Assembly (NCBI GenBank): GCA_035288405.1 | Contig: DATEAK010000203.1 | Location: 1 to 5,881 of the forward strand | Direction of reading: 5' to 3' | DNA length: 5,881 nt | Origin: JACPSX01 sp035288405 [NCBI: bacterium] | GTDB taxonomy: Bacteria > JACPSX01 | In this document: positions 1 to 5,881 of the stretch, one piece after another | How positions within the stretch are numbered: the first letter of the stretch is position 1 | Layout: the number at the start of each line of letters is the position of its first letter | Made by a program: the position numbers and the translations under genes | Notes under the pieces: model-generated | What the model was told of the DNA's origin: nothing | The model's database searches: none | The model's input: the letters and a program-made list of their open reading frames with translations, nothing else

Positions 1-10
1 GGGGTAGATT

Positions 11-610
11 ATGCGTTGGGGAATGGCCATTGATCTGAAGAGCTGTGTGGGGTGTAACAGTTGCACGCTGGCCTGCAAAGTGGAGAACGCAACTCCTCCG
101 GAAATCCAATGGATCCGGGTCATGGAAAAGGAAGAGGGGAATTACCCCACGGCGAAGCGCTCCTTTTTTCCCCTGCGCTGCAACCACTGCGCCGATCCGC
201 CCTGTCTGACGATCTGCCCCACCGGGGCCACCTACCAGCGGGACGACGGCATCGTGCTCGTTGACTATAAGAAGTGCATCGGCTGCGGAGCGTGCATGAT
301 CGGCTGCCCGTATCAGGTGCGGTTCAAGTGGGAAAACGGCCGGGGGTACTACAGCACCGGCTACACGCCGTTTGAAGAAGAAGGGTATGCGCGCTACGAG
401 GAAGGCACCTACCAGAAGTGCACCTTCTGCAGTCACCGTCTGGACCAGGGGCTTCCTCCGGCCTGCGTGCAAACCTGCCCCACCCGGGCTCTGACGTTCG
501 GAGATCTGGACGACCCCGACAGCGAAATCAATCAGCTCTTGCGGGCCCGCCACTATACCCGGCCGCGGGAAGAACTGGGGACCCAACCCTCTACGTTCTA
601 TCTCTCGTAG
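11..610 (+). CDS. 4Fe-4S ferredoxin-type electron-transfer subunit (B subunit of an NrfD-linked molybdoenzyme)
   Basis: This is the electron-relay subunit of a complex iron-sulfur molybdoenzyme (DmsB/PsrB/TtrB/PhsB family). It should carry electrons between the catalytic subunit and the membrane anchor encoded downstream. Sixteen cysteines form four cluster motifs: C12-x2-C15-x2-C18-x3-C22; C57-x2-C60-x4-C65-x3-C69; C89-x2-C92-x2-C95-x3-C99; and C137-x2-C140-x11-C152-x3-C156. This is the family's four [4Fe-4S] pattern, and no ligand is missing. The 199-residue length is normal for the family, and the C-terminal LGTQPSTFYL is a typical PsrB-like ending. The start is the ATG at 11, with GGGG at 1-4 as a possible ribosome site. 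The protein begins directly with MRWGMAIDLKSCVGC, so it has no Tat or Sec signal and should stay on the cytoplasmic side. A TAG at 5-7 might end an upstream gene, but this cannot be checked here. The 17-base gap to the next gene implies co-transcription. The family is near certain; the enzyme's substrate is unknown. Confidence 0.95.
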   Translation: MRWGMAIDLKSCVGCNSCTLACKVENATPPEIQWIRVMEKEEGNYPTAKRSFFPLRCNHCADPPCLTICPTGATYQRDDGIVLVDYKKCIGCGACMIGCPYQVRFKWENGRGYYSTGYTPFEEEGYARYEEGTYQKCTFCSHRLDQGLPPACVQTCPTRALTFGDLDDPDSEINQLLRARHYTRPREELGTQPSTFYLS

Positions 611-622
611 AGGGGGAGGAGG
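611..622 (+). promoter_or_regulatory. Strong Shine-Dalgarno site for the NrfD-like gene
   Basis: The purine run AGGGGGAGGAGG follows directly on the stop codon of the preceding gene and ends five bases before the ATG at 628. It decides the start of the membrane-subunit gene, although the same frame stays open upstream to 418 inside the preceding gene. The tight stop-SD-start arrangement suggests translational coupling of the B and C subunits. Confidence 0.85.
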
Positions 623-627
623 AAGCC

Positions 628-1509
628 ATGAGTTATACGGACAACGTGATTCTGGACTACAAGCCGCAACGGGTGTGGACGAGCCCCGTGGACCTCAATC
701 TCTTTTTAGCGGGCACCGGAGCGGCGACCTATTTTTGGGGAGTTCTGTGGGGATCTTGGATCGGCGAGGGAATCGGCGTTCTGGCGGTGGCCTTGGGAGG
801 TCTGGTCACCCAGCTGGAGCTGGGACGGCCCTCGCGAGCGTGGCGGGCGCTCACGCGCCTGGGGGGCAGTTGGATGAGCCGGGGCGTTCTGTTTCTCTCC
901 TTCTTTGTTGTGCTCGGGGCCCTCTCCGTGCTCCCCTCCCTCCCGGGACTGGCCGGACTTCCCTGGGGCCCCTCAACGACCACGGGTATCGTGATCAGCA
1001 CTCTGGCACAGATTCTCGCATTGGGGGTGACGTTCTATAGCGGCATGCTGCTGAGCTCCTGGCCCTCCATCCCCTTCTGGAACACCCCGTTGTTCCCGTT
1101 GATGATGATGGCGTTTTCGTTTGCCGGAGGCAGTGCCGTGATTCTGACTGTCCTGTCCCTGCAAGCCGCCCCGGTTTCCCTCACTCAGGTGGAACTGGAT
1201 ACGCTGTATCTGGCGGGATTATGCGCCGTCATGGCCCTGCTTTACCTGGCCACCATGGCCCCTTCCACTCTGGCCAGCCGAGCCTCGGTGCGCATCATCC
1301 TCTGGGGGAAACACAGCCTGGACTTCTACCTGGGGCTGGCGGCCATCGGCCTTTTACTTCCCCTGATTTTACTTTTCCTCGACTACCGCTCCGGCTCTTC
1401 TCCGGCGGAGAGCCCATTGCGCATCGTGGCGACGGCGGCTCTCCTGGTGGGAGGGTTCATGGTGCGGCGCATCTGGCTTCGTGCCGGTGTGTACGGTCTG
1501 CCGGTTTAG
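628..1509 (+). CDS. NrfD/PsrC-like polytopic membrane subunit (C subunit)
   Basis: This is the membrane anchor of the complex, which in this family exchanges electrons with the quinone pool. From the ATG at 628 the protein has 293 residues. About eight hydrophobic helices can be read, near residues 22-42, 46-63, 86-103, 120-142, 152-178, 190-210, 231-251 and 264-282, matching the eight-helix PsrC-type fold. Family hallmarks are LELGRPSRAWRAL after helix 2, SWMSRG before helix 3, and YSGMLLSSWPSIPFWNTPLFPL leading into helix 5. The C-terminus RRIWLRAGVYGLPV is also typical of NrfD proteins. There are no haem-ligand or iron-sulfur motifs, so quinone is the likely partner, with electrons arriving through the B subunit. 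The frame is open from 418, but the extra 70 residues overlap the preceding gene and have no membrane character. The SD at 611-622 supports the start at 628. Whether the complex reduces or oxidises quinone cannot be told from sequence. Confidence 0.93.
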   Translation: MSYTDNVILDYKPQRVWTSPVDLNLFLAGTGAATYFWGVLWGSWIGEGIGVLAVALGGLVTQLELGRPSRAWRALTRLGGSWMSRGVLFLSFFVVLGALSVLPSLPGLAGLPWGPSTTTGIVISTLAQILALGVTFYSGMLLSSWPSIPFWNTPLFPLMMMAFSFAGGSAVILTVLSLQAAPVSLTQVELDTLYLAGLCAVMALLYLATMAPSTLASRASVRIILWGKHSLDFYLGLAAIGLLLPLILLFLDYRSGSSPAESPLRIVATAALLVGGFMVRRIWLRAGVYGLPV

Positions 1510-1596
1510 GAATCCATCCATGCCGAAGGTTCCCGAAGTGACGGACCAGCAGGCGCCGACCTTCGAAAGGAAGTGAATACGAGAGAGGAGAACATC
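1510..1596 (+). other. Short intergenic spacer with a possible 18-codon reading frame
   Basis: These 87 bases separate the C- and A-subunit genes and hold no known element. An ATG at 1520, eight bases after AGGA (1508-1511), opens an 18-codon frame ending in TGA at 1574-1576 (peptide MPKVPEVTDQQAPTFERK). A weak 7-base inverted repeat, CGAAGGT (1524-1530) and ACCTTCG (1559-1565), brackets 28 bases. No T-run follows, so it is not an intrinsic terminator and transcription should continue into the A-subunit gene. Confidence 0.5.
1581..1588 (+). promoter_or_regulatory. Shine-Dalgarno site that fixes the A-subunit start
   Basis: GAGAGGAG ends eight bases before the ATG at 1597, which is good spacing. 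A GTG at 1573, in the same frame, would add eight residues, but it abuts its only purine run (AAAGGAA, 1566-1572) with almost no spacer. The ATG at 1597 is therefore preferred. Confidence 0.75.
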
Positions 1597-4179
1597 ATGG
1601 CTGTGGCAAAAGTCATGTCAACAGGAACCGCGGTAGGTTCCGATAAGAAGGATGTTTGGATCCCGACGGCCTGCGGCATGTGCTACATGAGCTGTGGAAT
1701 CCGCGTGCATGTGGTCGATGGCAAAGTCGTTGGCTTGGAAGGGGAACCGAATAACCCGCAGAACCGGGGGATCATGTGTGCTAAGGGCAAAGCGGGAATC
1801 ATGAACCTCTATAACCCGAACCGTGTCCGCACGCCCTTGAAGCGCACAAATCCGCAAAAAGGGATCGGAGTGGATCCCGGGTGGGTGGAAATTTCCTGGG
1901 AAGAGGCGCTGGATACCATCACCAGCAAGTTGTCTGCCTTGAAGGACGACCCTCGACAGCTTTTCGTGCAGACCTGGGAAGTGATCGGGGATAACTATTA
2001 CTGGCTTGCCGCGCTGGCGGCTGCCTTTGGCACACCGAACGTGATGCCCGCCTCTTCGGCTTCTTGCGGCAAGGTCATTCACCCCATGGAATTTCTCTCC
2101 GGCGGCGGCTTCCACCAGCAGCCCGATCTGCACTACTGCAACTATGCGCTTCTGGTGGGGACCCAAATCGGCACTGCGGCCCGCGGGTGCTTCAACCATA
2201 TGGCCACGGATTACGCCGAGGCGCGCAAGCGCGGCATGAAAGTGGTGGTGGTGGACCCCATCTCCAGCTACGCCGGCGCTAAGGCGGACGAGTGGATTCC
2301 CATCCGTCCGGGCACGGATTCCGCGTTTGCGTTGGGGCTCATGAATGTCTTGGTGAACGAATTGGGGATCTACGATGCTCCCTTCCTCCAGAAGCAAACC
2401 AATGCGGCCTATCTTGTGGGTCCGGAGGGCACCTATGTCCGCGACCCGATTTCCGGAAAGCCTCTCGTCTTTGACGCTGCTTTCGAGAAAGCGGTCTCTT
2501 ACGATGCTTCTTCTCCCGAAGTCTCCCTGGAGGGGAGTTATGAAGTCGCGGGCGTGAAATGCGCCCCCGCGTTCCAGGTGCTCAAAGATCACCTGCGGAG
2601 CTTCACTCCCGAGAAAATGTCGGAGATTACGACGGTTCCGGCGGCCACGATCCGCCGCGTGGCGCGCGAGTTCGGAGCCGCCGCGCAAGTTGGAGCCACG
2701 ACCATCCTGAAGGGACAAGAGCTGCCGTTGCGCCCCGCCTGTGTGGACTGGGCCCGCGGGCCCCAGGGGCACAAACACGGATTTCACAATTGCTGGGCGC
2801 TCAAACTCGTCAACATTCTCGTCGGCAACGTCAACATGCCCGGAGGGATTCAGAGCACCGGGGCGGCGGGCAATACTCCACACCGCTGGAGGCCGGAGGC
2901 AGGCCAGGATGGAATGATGGAGCACGGAGGATCGTTTTTGCCTGTGCCCCACCCCACGGCCTTTCCCGGCCGGGACCCATCGGAGCCGATTCGCCAGGAC
3001 GCGTTTGAATTATTCCCGGTGGCCGGGCACGCCACCACGATGTTCCCCCTGGTGGCGACCGAGCCCGAAAAGTGGGGACTCGACTATCATTTGGGTGCCG
3101 TTATCCACACCCCGGGCAATTTCCTCCTCGGTTCGTTTGGGGATTTTGCCGTCGTGGAACGATTTTACCAGTCCGTCCCCTTTGCCTTGGGCTTTGCCAT
3201 CGAAATCAATGAGACCAACGAGTTCGATGACATTATCCTGCCTTTCCCCTCCTACCTGGAAAGGGACGACTTTGTTCTGCCGCTCCAATTCATGATCCCG
3301 ATTTGTGGAGATGATCAATGGTACTGGCAAATTCGCCAGCAAGTCGTCCCTCCGCCGGCCGGGATACGAGCTCCCCAGGAAGTGCTTATGGAGATCGGCC
3401 GCCGGCTCGGGATTTTGGACGACATGCACAGAATTCTGAATCAAATTATGATGCTCAAGGACCCTCACCGCCTGGAGGCGCATCAGAGTTATCCGATCAA
3501 AGAGATTCACGACCGCATGGCCCGCTCGTGGTTTGGGGACGAAAAGGCTCTCGACTGGTTTGAGAAAAACGGAGTCCTGCCCATCCCTCGTGAGGTGGAG
3601 GAGCGCTACCCGGGTCCATTTATCGAGGCTCGAATCCCTATTTACCTGGAGCACTACATCAACCGCGGCAAGCAATTGGAAGCGGTCGCAAAGAAGATGG
3701 GCCGTAGCTGGGATTTCTCTGACTATCAGGCGCTGCCGACCTGGATGCCCTGCGAATCGTTCCATACCGTCGGCCGGGACGAGTACGACCTGATTGCCGT
3801 ACACTACAAGTTAGCCTTCGTCTATGGTCACTACGGGAACGAGAACCCCTGGATCGACGAGATCTGCGAACAAAACCCCTACACCTATTCCGTTTTGATG
3901 AACACCGAGACGGGCAAGAAGAAGGGACTTCGCGATGGGGACCCGGTGTGGCTCGAATCCCGCGTCGCTCGAACAAAAGCGCGGGTCAAGCTTACCGAGT
4001 GCATCCATCCCGAGGTCGTGGGGATCGCGGGTCACTTCGGCCACTGGTCAAAAGGGATGCCTCAGTCTCGCGGCAAGGGAGTCGCATTCAACTCCTTGAT
4101 GCCCTATGATCTGGATCACATGGACATGATTTCGACCGCTCTTGACCACTGCGTCGCAGTCAAGGTGAGCCGGGCATAG
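1597..4179 (+). CDS. Molybdopterin-dependent oxidoreductase, catalytic A subunit (DMSO reductase superfamily, no Tat signal)
   Basis: This 860-residue catalytic subunit should bind a Mo- or W-bis-pterin guanine dinucleotide and one [4Fe-4S] cluster. The N-terminal cluster motif is C26-x2-C29-x3-C33-x27-C61, followed by the lysine (Lys63) usual in enzymes that pass electrons from cluster to pterin. Cys157, in SSASCGKVIHP, lies where family members have their protein ligand to the metal, suggesting cysteine ligation as in PsrA, NapA and acetylene hydratase. Pterin-domain motifs include VVVVDPISS with the following WIPIRPGTDSAFALG, then GHKHGFHN (391-398) and GNVNMPGG (410-417). Residues about 268-345 form an insertion containing RDPISGKPLVFD, a segment I associate with poorly characterised anaerobic dehydrogenases. 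The C-terminal pterin-binding barrel starts near 730 and includes GHFGHWSKG (812-820). The N-terminus has no twin-arginine or hydrophobic segment, so a cytoplasmic location is inferred. With the B and C genes upstream it forms a quinone-linked complex. Candidates are PadB-like (phenylacetyl-CoA), SoeA-like (sulfite), a thiosulfate/polysulfide-type enzyme, or something undescribed. The superfamily is certain, the substrate unknown. Confidence 0.95.
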   Translation: MAVAKVMSTGTAVGSDKKDVWIPTACGMCYMSCGIRVHVVDGKVVGLEGEPNNPQNRGIMCAKGKAGIMNLYNPNRVRTPLKRTNPQKGIGVDPGWVEISWEEALDTITSKLSALKDDPRQLFVQTWEVIGDNYYWLAALAAAFGTPNVMPASSASCGKVIHPMEFLSGGGFHQQPDLHYCNYALLVGTQIGTAARGCFNHMATDYAEARKRGMKVVVVDPISSYAGAKADEWIPIRPGTDSAFALGLMNVLVNELGIYDAPFLQKQTNAAYLVGPEGTYVRDPISGKPLVFDAAFEKAVSYDASSPEVSLEGSYEVAGVKCAPAFQVLKDHLRSFTPEKMSEITTVPAATIRRVAREFGAAAQVGATTILKGQELPLRPACVDWARGPQGHKHGFHNCWALKLVNILVGNVNMPGGIQSTGAAGNTPHRWRPEAGQDGMMEHGGSFLPVPHPTAFPGRDPSEPIRQDAFELFPVAGHATTMFPLVATEPEKWGLDYHLGAVIHTPGNFLLGSFGDFAVVERFYQSVPFALGFAIEINETNEFDDIILPFPSYLERDDFVLPLQFMIPICGDDQWYWQIRQQVVPPPAGIRAPQEVLMEIGRRLGILDDMHRILNQIMMLKDPHRLEAHQSYPIKEIHDRMARSWFGDEKALDWFEKNGVLPIPREVEERYPGPFIEARIPIYLEHYINRGKQLEAVAKKMGRSWDFSDYQALPTWMPCESFHTVGRDEYDLIAVHYKLAFVYGHYGNENPWIDEICEQNPYTYSVLMNTETGKKKGLRDGDPVWLESRVARTKARVKLTECIHPEVVGIAGHFGHWSKGMPQSRGKGVAFNSLMPYDLDHMDMISTALDHCVAVKVSRA

Positions 4180-4238: not shown

Positions 4239-5093
4239 TTAGAGCTTGATGAGAGAACCGGGGTCTTTGGGGGTGGCCTTTTCTCCCGAGCCCATCTCGT
4301 AGCGCAGCGCTTTGAGCGACTCCTCTCTGAGCTCCGCCCAAATCTCTCCCACCAGAGTCGCGAACTTCTGGCTCGAGACGAGGGCAGGATCCCGCGGGCG
4401 GGCAAGGTCTATGAGGACCTCTTTCTTAAGCAGTCCGGGGCGTGCACTCATGATGATCACACGATCGGCAAGCTGCACGGATTCGTTGATATTGTGAGTG
4501 ATGAAAACGATCGTCTGGCCCAGTTCCCCCCAGATGCGCAGTAATTCTTCTCCCAGGATAAGCCGGGTTTGCTCGTCCAGGGCGCCAAAGGGCTCGTCCA
4601 TAAGGAGGATGTCGGGATCGAGGGCAAGGGCACGAGCGATAGCGACTCTCTGGTTCATCCCTCCCGAGAGTTCCTGAGGATATCGCTCCTCGAACCCTCG
4701 CAGCCCGACCAGATCGATGATTCCCTGGCATTTCCTCCGCCTGGATTGCCTGTCCAAGCCCCGGACCTCCAGACCAAATTCCACGTTTTCCATCACGCTG
4801 CGCCAGGGAAAGACGGACACATCTTGAAAGACCATGGTGATCTTGGGGTGGGGGCCGGAGATGAGTTCCCCCTCCACGTAAATCTCGCCGTGGGAAGGTT
4901 CCACCAGGCCTCCGATCATGTTGAGAAGAGTCGATTTTCCGCAGCCGCTGGGTCCGATGATCGCGACGAACTCCCCCTTCTGAATCCTCAAGTTGACCTT
5001 TTCCACTGCGGCCAGCACTTCCTTGCCGTTGACGGAGAAAGCCAGTGAGTAGTCCTTGGTCACATCCTTCAGTTCAATAATCGGATTTCCCAT
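4239..5093 (-). CDS. ABC transporter ATP-binding protein, nitrate/taurine/sulfonate (NitT/TauT) type
   Basis: This 284-residue nucleotide-binding subunit of an ABC importer should power uptake by a partner permease at the inner face of the membrane. All motifs are present: Walker A GPSGCGKST (47-55), Q-loop Gln90 in VFQD, signature LSGGMNQR (142-149), Walker B ILLMDEP (162-168) with catalytic Glu167, D-loop ALDE (171-174) and switch His200. The signature has Met where Gln is commonest, a variation frequent in this subfamily. FPWRSVMENVEFGLEVRG after the Q-loop, and THNINESVQLADRV with SARPG after the switch, are typical of SsuB/TauB/NrtD/ThiZ-type proteins. The start is the ATG at 5093 (minus); GGGGGA about ten bases upstream is a modest ribosome site. 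No permease or binding-protein gene adjoins it in the window. The gene downstream is convergent and the gene upstream is an M24 protein, so the substrate cannot be assigned. Family members import sulfonates, taurine, nitrate, bicarbonate, pyrimidine precursors or aromatic acids. Confidence 0.94.
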   Translation of the reverse strand: MGNPIIELKDVTKDYSLAFSVNGKEVLAAVEKVNLRIQKGEFVAIIGPSGCGKSTLLNMIGGLVEPSHGEIYVEGELISGPHPKITMVFQDVSVFPWRSVMENVEFGLEVRGLDRQSRRRKCQGIIDLVGLRGFEERYPQELSGGMNQRVAIARALALDPDILLMDEPFGALDEQTRLILGEELLRIWGELGQTIVFITHNINESVQLADRVIIMSARPGLLKKEVLIDLARPRDPALVSSQKFATLVGEIWAELREESLKALRYEMGSGEKATPKDPGSLIKL

Positions 5094-5440: not shown

Positions 5441-5881
5441 TCACACGATGAACCATTCCAGCGGGAGCTTACTCATCCGTTCCGCACCTTTCTCCCTCAC
5501 CACAAGGGTATCTCCCACATGCACGCCCTGTTTCTGGTCGGGGGTAACCGCATTGGGTTCGAAAGTGATGGTCATCCCGGGCTGCACCGCTAACTGTTCC
5601 ATATCGTTCTGGAATTGGTGCCACCTGGCGGTATCCAGGTCCTGGTATAGGCTGCGGCGCTTTTGCGAAAAGGCAATGGGACGCTCCAGAGACAGGCCCA
5701 TTCCATGGAAATGTGGAGTGACCGTTATGAAACCGGCAGCCAGAACAGGCTCCGCCATGGCTTGGACCACATTCCCGAATGTATTTCCGGGTTTCAGGGT
5801 CTCGAATCCTCTTTCGTATGAAGCTCGGGCTGCGTCAAACAAGCGCTTGTAGGTATCCGGAACGAAGCCCACCGCCATGGG
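5441..5881 (-). CDS. M24-family (Xaa-Pro peptidase/creatinase-like) protein, C-terminal part, runs off the window edge
   Basis: Only the last 146 residues are present. The frame stays open to the window edge, and an ATG at 5878 is probably internal because family members are usually 350-420 residues. The fold (pita-bread; aminopeptidase P, prolidase, creatinase) is indicated by ETLKPGNTF, the HFHGMGLSLERP segment (window-partial residues 57-68, where the family has its metal-binding HGxG histidine), and MTITFEPN with Glu108 as the fourth metal ligand. The fifth ligand, a Glu in the usual G-[VF]-R-[IV]-E-D motif, appears as Gly123 in GVHVGDTLVV. The two upstream metal-binding aspartates would lie outside the window. 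The protein is probably cytoplasmic and would hydrolyse an X-Pro or other C-N bond if active; the altered site makes a non-peptidase or degenerate-metal role possible. It is encoded on the same strand as the ABC ATPase but separated by 347 bases, so co-transcription is uncertain. Confidence 0.85.
   Translation of the reverse strand, partial: PMAVGFVPDTYKRLFDAARASYERGFETLKPGNTFGNVVQAMAEPVLAAGFITVTPHFHGMGLSLERPIAFSQKRRSLYQDLDTARWHQFQNDMEQLAVQPGMTITFEPNAVTPDQKQGVHVGDTLVVREKGAERMSKLPLEWFIV

Follow-up and report, generated by a model that had tools for sequence, protein, structure and literature searches.

Inward-facing molybdoenzymes that are linked to an NrfD-type membrane anchor are already known, in the form of SoeABC and, reportedly, PadBCD, and the complex that we describe here, which is encoded on a 5,881-nt stretch of DNA (the window; contig DATEAK010000203.1, assembly GCA_035288405.1, JACPSX01 sp035288405; positions are those of the whole window), is a new variant of this arrangement. 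PadBCD, the phenylacetyl-CoA:acceptor oxidoreductase (CoA, coenzyme A) that Rhee and Fuchs are said to have described in 1999, reportedly combines a catalytic, an iron-sulfur (Fe-S), and an NrfD-type subunit, and its oxidation draws oxygen from water. For the sulfite:quinone oxidoreductase SoeABC, an inward orientation of subunits A and B is assumed, and the NrfD-type anchor SoeC is for that reason expected to be inverted (PMC8076601). TtrABC, PsrABC, and PhsABC share the architecture of catalytic subunit, Fe-S subunit, and anchor, which in Ttr and Psr is of the NrfD type, but differ from the window complex in that their catalytic subunit carries a twin-arginine translocation (Tat) signal (as does TtrB in locus L098), their anchor faces outward, and their catalytic subunits fall into a separate clade; in section 6 of a review of NrfD proteins, the N- and C-termini of PsrC and the N-terminus of TtrC are assigned to the P-side (PMC8076601). 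The window complex is apparently related, as judged from sequence, to an enzyme thought to degrade aromatic acids rather than to sulfur-breathing enzymes. Its catalytic (A) and Fe-S (B) subunits very probably face the cytoplasm, with the N-terminal side of the anchor (C) inside, and we consider it fairly probable that the whole is an inward-facing complex that oxidises an organic acid or thioester and passes the electrons to quinone.

The three genes lie adjacent to one another on the plus strand (11-4179) in the order B-C-A, as a first-pass annotation of the same DNA had reported and as Pfam assignments agree. They encode a multi-cluster 4Fe-4S electron-transfer protein without a signal (B, 11..610, 199 aa; Pfam Fer4_11, Fer4_7, and others), an NrfD/PsrC-type quinone-binding anchor with eight transmembrane helices (C, 628..1509, 293 aa; NrfD PF03916, E 5.8e-15), and a catalytic subunit of the molybdenum/tungsten-bis(pyranopterin guanine dinucleotide) (Mo/W-bisPGD) type without a Tat leader (A, 1597..4179, 860 aa; Pfam Molybdopterin PF00384, Fe4S4, and Molydop_binding, together with NCBIfam, tree, and leader check). 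With gaps of 17 nt between B and C and 63-87 nt between C and A, the genes are close enough for one operon; A may alternatively start at GTG 1573, eight residues upstream of ATG 1597.

Absence of Tat signals from A and B, which the first-pass annotation had taken to indicate a cytoplasm-facing variant, is borne out by the reading frames. The C stop codon (1507-1509) bounds the A frame on its upstream side and leaves at most 54 residues before the first Fe-S Cys, and this maximal leader contains no RR (one RK) from any start; B, whose first Fe-S Cys is residue 12, cannot be extended upstream of ATG 11, as an in-frame TAG stands at 5..7 (plus strand). Since the A leader lacks RR and the B start is bounded by the TAG, no Tat signal is possible on either subunit, and the longer A start with a Tat motif for which that annotation had suggested looking does not exist in the frame from the C stop. 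Its description of the A N-terminus was correct with regard to the missing twin arginines and nearly, not strictly, correct with regard to a missing hydrophobic stretch, as the 15-residue segment of highest hydrophobicity in the leader has a mean Kyte-Doolittle value of 1.29 and contains a lysine and no twin arginine. Among relatives, Tat signals were sought by motif scans in 73 of 82 A rows (L and G numbers denote loci and genomes); a first scan, which required a minimum hydropathy, overlooked several true Tat leaders, a stricter scan detected L067 and all 11 of the rows that served as controls at that stage but overlooked the true leader of L093, and we relied on a motif-only scan for RR-x-hydrophobic. 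In the latter, all 13 exported rows (including L067 and L093) showed the motif followed by a signal-like stretch; the motif also occurs, without such a stretch, in 17 of the remaining 60 rows, where, by reading, it lies in an Arg-rich upstream frame before the probable start or 16-28 residues from the first Fe-S Cys. A match of L001 in the stricter scan was discarded as spurious, its frame running across a MoaD-like gene.

Phylogenetic placement of A agrees with an inward-facing complex. A quick tree contained 72 of the 82 A rows (the ten dropped were duplicates, fragments, and distant rows) and a careful tree 37 rows that were selected from these 72 to cover the range of groups; the rows exclude PsrA, acetylene hydratase, and experimentally proven PadB, and those standing for TtrA and ArrA are TtrA-like and ArrA-like rows below the curated cut-offs, TtrA and ArrA over the NCBIfam cut-off having been found in 0 of 250 genomes each. 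In the careful tree, the window belongs to a clade of 8 rows (support 100/100) within sets of 14 (96/95) and 25 rows (99/98); the 25-row set, which includes a candidate PadB clade (five rows, 100/100), has a Tat leader on no row. Seven exported rows, the Tat-bearing L093 among them, form one separate group (99/98), so that A lies outside the exported clade, and three SoeA-type rows form a clade of their own (100/100) that does not hold the window. In the quick tree, likewise, the 16 rows of the window's clade (100) belong to a set of 56 rows without Tat (97), which stands apart from the TtrA, ArrA-like, PhsA, and SoeA rows. The long branch of L067, whose A has a Tat leader, attaches immediately outside the 25-row set (90/89); this A (L067:3304-5955) carries a Cys-x4-His motif, is followed by B, and may represent an exported sister of the no-Tat clade. 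The no-Tat clade also has a signature: the alignment column five after the Cys presumed to be the Mo ligand holds His in all of its 56 rows versus 0 of 15 outgroup rows (SoeA, TtrA, ArrA-like, PhsA, and others). The exact Cys-x4-His spacing is found in 55 of the 56 (in the window CGKVIH, C157-x4-H162, 2065..2082, plus strand, from the family alignment), L090 having Cys-x2-His. Since L067 carries the motif too (CEAARH) and no-Tat SoeA-type rows lack it, Cys-x4-His marks the family plus L067 rather than cytoplasmic location. Cys157 is the predicted Mo ligand of A, and the CxxCxxxC...C motif of the proximal 4Fe-4S cluster (C26, C29, C33, and C61; 1672..1779, plus strand) occupies invariant alignment columns.

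Window A is 37.5% identical to the candidate PadB of L061, 29.0% to a SoeA beside the sulfoacetaldehyde gene xsc (L091), 25.7% to PhsA (L092), and 24.4 and 26.3% to two TtrA-like rows. Its NCBIfam scores, of which that for PhsA is the best, are far under the cut-offs (PhsA 231 vs 694 bits, TtrA 84 vs 1750, ArrA 145 vs 1600), and the label of tetrathionate or thiosulfate reductase, of which the first-pass annotation had warned, would indeed be misleading. A search of PHROGs returned DmsA-like matches only. In a sister clade (L054-L059 and L068-L071), A measures about 910-930 aa and has the cluster motif C-x2-C-...-G-P-D...C, in which the third Cys is missing; FlK-type thioesterases and CoA ligases adjoin several of its A genes.

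The charge pattern of C is a line of evidence independent of the missing Tat signal. An AlphaFold2 model of C (predicted local distance difference test, pLDDT, 71) has eight long helices and matched ActC (8k9e_C, TMq 0.72) and PsrC (2vpw_C) in Foldseek. With helices placed from the alignment, Lys and Arg residues on the N-terminal side and on the other side number 10:1 in window C and 12-16:0-4 in 13 other clade C subunits, i.e., all 14 of 14 are positive on the N-terminal side, versus 2-7:6-9, balanced or reversed, in seven exported-type anchors (Mann-Whitney p 2.7e-4, on rows that are not independent); six of these seven adjoin an A with a Tat leader found here, and the seventh is L101, whose A lay outside the scan. 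On the model helices, window C gives 9:0 to 9:2. In an unaligned count, six TtrC-type anchors are reversed (4-7:12-16), as is L093 (2:10), and L102 (7 vs 15) and L103 (7 vs 18), which stood outside the aligned count, point in the same direction as the TtrC set; L098 and L067 yielded no C. The inward pattern is absent from the unaligned count for the window (4 vs 9), L051 (4 vs 13), L052 (9 vs 10), L061 (11 vs 10), and L090 (8 vs 9); 6-7 helices rather than eight were called in the first four, and eight in L090. The charge result depends on helix placement, since these five do show the pattern in the aligned count and the window does so on its model helices as well. The P-side placement of the PsrC termini and TtrC N-terminus in that review section fits the counts of the exported-type controls (PMC8076601). 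By the positive-inside rule, window C is predicted to be inverted like SoeC, and because the peripheral Fe-S subunit, according to the review, adjoins the quinone site of the first helix bundle (PMC8076601), B and A should then be inside. We infer this topology from the charges and the missing signals; together with the placement of A in the no-Tat clade, the charge pattern supports the cytoplasm-facing variant of the first-pass annotation. As a simple hint that requires sequence only, the charge count may help to distinguish inward- from outward-facing NrfD complexes.

Comparison with PadBCD relies on a locus identified through its neighbour. PadI (phenylglyoxylate dehydrogenase) exceeded its cut-off in 2 of 300 genomes of the order (G141 and G092); in G141 (832 bits vs a cut-off of 700), the same contig carries L061, with a relative of A of 867 aa, B (51% identical to window B), and C in the order A-B-C, and L061 is by genomic context a candidate PadBCD. 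The candidate resembles the window complex in its catalytic, Fe-S, and NrfD-type subunits, absence of Tat, membership in the larger tree clade, Cys-x4-His, and charge pattern of C, but the two fall into separate 100/100 clades and differ in gene order (B-C-A in the window). With SoeABC, the window complex shares an anchor that is predicted to be inverted, a feature that is not exclusive (SoeC itself was outside the charge count), whereas SoeA-type rows lack the signature His (CSVNMA). When plasmids were searched with the candidate PadB (E limit 1e-60), only a Sporomusa termitida plasmid matched; its C-B-A-TorD cluster (L090) also lacks Tat signals on A and B, falls into the clade, and has the same charge side in the aligned count, with an A that is 30% identical to window A over its full length, but differs in its long branch, phylum, TorD chaperone, gene order, and Cys-x2-His spacing.

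With regard to function, the complex is likely to oxidise an organic acid or thioester, probably an aromatic one, inside the cell and to pass the electrons to quinone. In the proposed mechanism, A and B would sit on the cytoplasmic side of the inverted anchor C, and A would oxidise its substrate at a Mo-bisPGD held by Cys157, with oxygen from water; electrons would then travel via the 4Fe-4S cluster of A and the clusters of B to C, whose quinone would be bound close to the cytoplasmic face. The direction of electron flow, and with it reduction of the quinone, is a presumption. For oxidation of an organic acid or thioester by A, we would put the chances at a little better than even. The substrate should be intracellular because A is predicted to be inside, and may be an aromatic or related organic acid, as suggested by genes next to several relatives. 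In L008 and L004, B, C, a MoaD-like gene, A, and TctC are followed by genes for a thiamine pyrophosphate (TPP) enzyme (over the NF006203 cut-off in both, with benzoylformate decarboxylase among the lower matches), an aldehyde dehydrogenase, and a benzoate-type ring-hydroxylating dioxygenase, the last two identified by profile in L008 only and by clustering in L004; the L008 dioxygenase scored 379 bits as BenA-like and 113 as BenB-like, below the cut-off. In one coherent reading of these loci, A would convert an aryl acetate or thioester to a 2-oxo acid, and the TPP enzyme and aldehyde dehydrogenase would carry this on to an aryl carboxylate, in a PadBCD-like manner. Other neighbours are a flavin mononucleotide (FMN)-dependent alpha-hydroxyacid dehydrogenase and an ATP-binding cassette (ABC) transporter upstream of B-C-MoaD-A in L010, AOR and a CoA ligase before A in L006, and UbiD in L012.

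Several observations weigh against parts of this interpretation. Positive-inside counts predict topology and are not a measurement of it, and in the aligned count the two sides of six of the seven exported-type anchors are only 1-2 charges apart, the contrast being sharper in the unaligned count. The model of A is poor (pLDDT 54.8), and because of this it supports no active-site argument; the model and its Foldseek list were used only to call the MopB fold. The window has none of the catabolic neighbours seen in relatives such as L008 and L004; its other genes, both on the opposite strand, are those for an ABC ATPase and for part of an M24 peptidase. UbiD and TctC neighbours were rejected as strong proof of aromatic substrates: four genomes hold 22-60 UbiD genes each, and the enrichment is about twofold, with 11 A places out of 50 having a listed UbiD match no more than 6 kb away, versus about 5 expected (a hand count, with the expectation taken from gene density and contig ends ignored; TctC is without a genome-wide count). 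Finally, no relative of A was found in about 33 kb around the PadI of G092 (L022 and L062), so that the PadB naming rests on one locus, only G141 having an A relative near PadI.

Among alternatives to an oxidase of organic acids or thioesters, we regard as unlikely, though the least so of those considered, an inward-facing reductase in which quinol, via C, B, and A, would reduce an oxidised compound inside the cell, be it an N-oxide, an S-oxide, a sulfur compound, or a phenol that is dehydroxylated. NrfD complexes work in both directions, and the solved structures nearest to A in sequence are reductases (phmmer: polysulfide reductase, PsrA, 158 bits; ArrA 144), as is the best NCBIfam match, PhsA; against a reductase, however, stand the distance of the PhsA score from its cut-off, the position of A outside the PhsA, TtrA, and ArrA-like rows, and the catabolic genes beside several relatives. 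That the window encodes a true PadBCD of divergent sequence seems improbable: the same three parts, absence of Tat, the shared larger clade, and the identity between the B subunits would fit, but window A stands in its own clade outside the five-row Pad clade at an identity of 37.5%, the gene orders differ, and neither padEFGHI nor padJ occurs in the 5.9-kb window.

Two further explanations each have a very small chance of being correct. A redox-neutral Mo/W lyase or hydratase has a precedent in acetylene hydratase (AH), as cytoplasmic, Cys-ligated MopB enzymes that hydrate their substrate exist (table-level data of a superfamily survey, PMC10100899); a dedicated multi-cluster B and an NrfD anchor, however, are sensible only for electron transfer to or from quinone, and A scores 77.5 bits with acetylene hydratase as against 158 with PsrA. 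The same survey gives Ser as the Mo ligand of RhL/PgtL in its table (PMC10100899), and an enzyme of this type (resorcinol hydroxylase, transhydroxylase) was rejected, as the ligand column holds Cys in 56 of 56 clade rows. An exported complex with a missed signal, through a wrong start or through hitchhiking on a partner, could be argued from the ability of a Tat partner to carry the signal for another subunit and from the fact that absence of Tat rests here on motif scans rather than on signal prediction software, but no upstream extension of A or B yields a Tat signal, Tat leaders are absent from the A subunits of the clade, and the charges of C put its N-terminal side inside.

A pattern scan over genomes that represent one species each, sensitive to close relatives only, found 12 loci at 55-60% identity, all in metagenome-assembled genomes (MAGs) of beta- or gammaproteobacteria; these assemblies are of unstated purity, and mixed strains are possible. 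At E <= 1e-40, A places numbered 15 in G002, 12 each in G003 and G005, 11 in G009, and 1-7 in the other five of nine genomes that lie behind these loci, counts that include contig-end fragments and, in G009, also the SoeA-type L074 and the Tat-bearing L067. At E <= 1e-90, only 1 of 398 Pseudomonadota genomes was positive among the rows listed, namely the centre itself (at most two candidates scored per genome), and 13 of 80 genomes were positive in the family of G002 (at most 11 candidates scored); the no-Tat A family thus looks rare outside those genomes. B and C precede A in 5 of the 12 loci (L001, L004, L008, L010, and L012), whose B subunits are 54.5-59% identical to window B; the contigs of L003, L009, and L011 start too close to A to show an upstream B or C, and that of L026 also starts close. 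Likeness of the window to ttrBCA in gene order, on which the first-pass annotation had remarked, says little, as A-B-C, B-C-A, and C-B-A are all present among no-Tat relatives, and B-C-A also occurs beside an exported A (L093). A gene map of the loci omitted 13 of them (reference loci, duplicates, and L024). In the five B-C-A loci, a gene for a small MoaD/ThiS-like protein directly precedes A (L001:7642-7959, L004:2576-2914, L008:7687-7974, L010:6969-7286, and L012:7645-7962), giving the order B-C-(MoaD-like)-A; the window is without it. This protein, which belongs to the ThiS family in L001 and has no Pfam match in L008 and L032, ends in GG in 13 of 13 copies, a terminus typical of sulfur carriers for molybdopterin, and is encoded upstream of A in 7 of the 13 rows of the window clade that have sufficient flanking sequence and in 6 of 21 rows of the next clade (one stray distant row excluded).

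The presence of up to 15 A places per uncultured betaproteobacterial assembly was unexpected, and the arrangement of some of them suggests cassettes. In G002, four A paralogs with 73-79% protein identity run into a B whose first 75-91 bases are 99-100% identical DNA, and in G003 two paralogs (75.5%) share 84 of 84 bases of B; these near-identical B starts lie at contig ends (L028, L032, L042, and L045 in G002; L031 and L039 in G003), and the final bases of A are nearly identical too (about 40 printed for G002). Contigs seem to break here as a result of near-exact repetition of the B(C) module, which would in part explain why B copies are fewer than A places (3 vs 15 in G002, 6 vs 12 in G003, 2 vs 12 in G005, and 4 vs 11 in G009). 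Lone A genes of G002 were considered and rejected as partnerless catalytic subunits, as several contigs end inside B just after A; however, L005, L007, L030, L036, L043, and L047, among others, have at least 2.6 kb on both sides of A with no match to B, and these A genes are candidates for sharing of B. Genomes G002, G003, G005, and G009, which are those behind L002, L003, L005, and L012, respectively, hold extraordinary numbers, 60, 33, 41, and 22, of UbiD-family decarboxylase genes at E <= 1e-20 in assemblies of 3.5-5.2 Mb. As a tentative wider proposal, for which the chances are somewhat below even, these enzymes would constitute a hitherto unrecognised MopB family, marked by Cys-x4-His and an inverted NrfD and with the window as an outlying member, that oxidises or hydroxylates intracellular aromatic acids or thioesters without oxygen and with quinone as acceptor; betaproteobacterial cassettes would pair substrate-specialised A subunits with a homogenised B(C) in genomes with dozens of UbiD genes. 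Only short sequences at the ends of contigs show the cassette pattern, for which assembly error or a mixture of strains may also account. If the cassette reading is true, a single genome could draw on a wide range of aromatic substrates with no need for oxygenases. It would be noteworthy for catalytic subunits to diverge while they share a homogenised electron module; the expansion of the family is the more novel part of the findings, and 11-15 A places with 22-60 UbiD genes per assembly provide a testable case of substrate diversification on a shared module.

The A family is little described, and it is multiplied in some uncultured bacteria. Such a family is not described among the listed open-licence literature. 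A 2023 survey of the MopB superfamily lists SoeA, AH, RhL/PgtL, PsrA/PhsA, and others (PMC10100899), and the no-Tat clade appears to be unnamed there, since 'phenylacet' is absent from its main text; the main text of the NrfD review, likewise, contains no word that starts with 'phenyl' (PMC8076601). Automatic naming after sulfur respiration could lead to misreading of sulfur and carbon cycling of groundwater bacteria. One such name could come from B, whose best NCBIfam match is DsrO at 200.8 bits vs a cut-off of 200 (ArrB 191 vs 450; TtrB 164 vs 416), so that automatic annotation could call it a sulfate-reduction protein, a name that the neighbouring genes contradict; DsrMKJOP identity was rejected, as B lies just over the DsrO cut-off, C scores 23.5 vs 350 for DsrP, and the window holds no other Dsr genes. 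Downstream of A, and convergent with it, the minus strand encodes the ATPase of a nitrate/taurine-type ABC transporter (4239-5093; Pfam/NCBIfam), which is 52% identical to an ATPase in the B-C-A locus L010. A partial M24 peptidase gene (5441-5881, minus strand; Pfam/NCBIfam) follows, and an M24 gene is also present in L007 (12340-13542).

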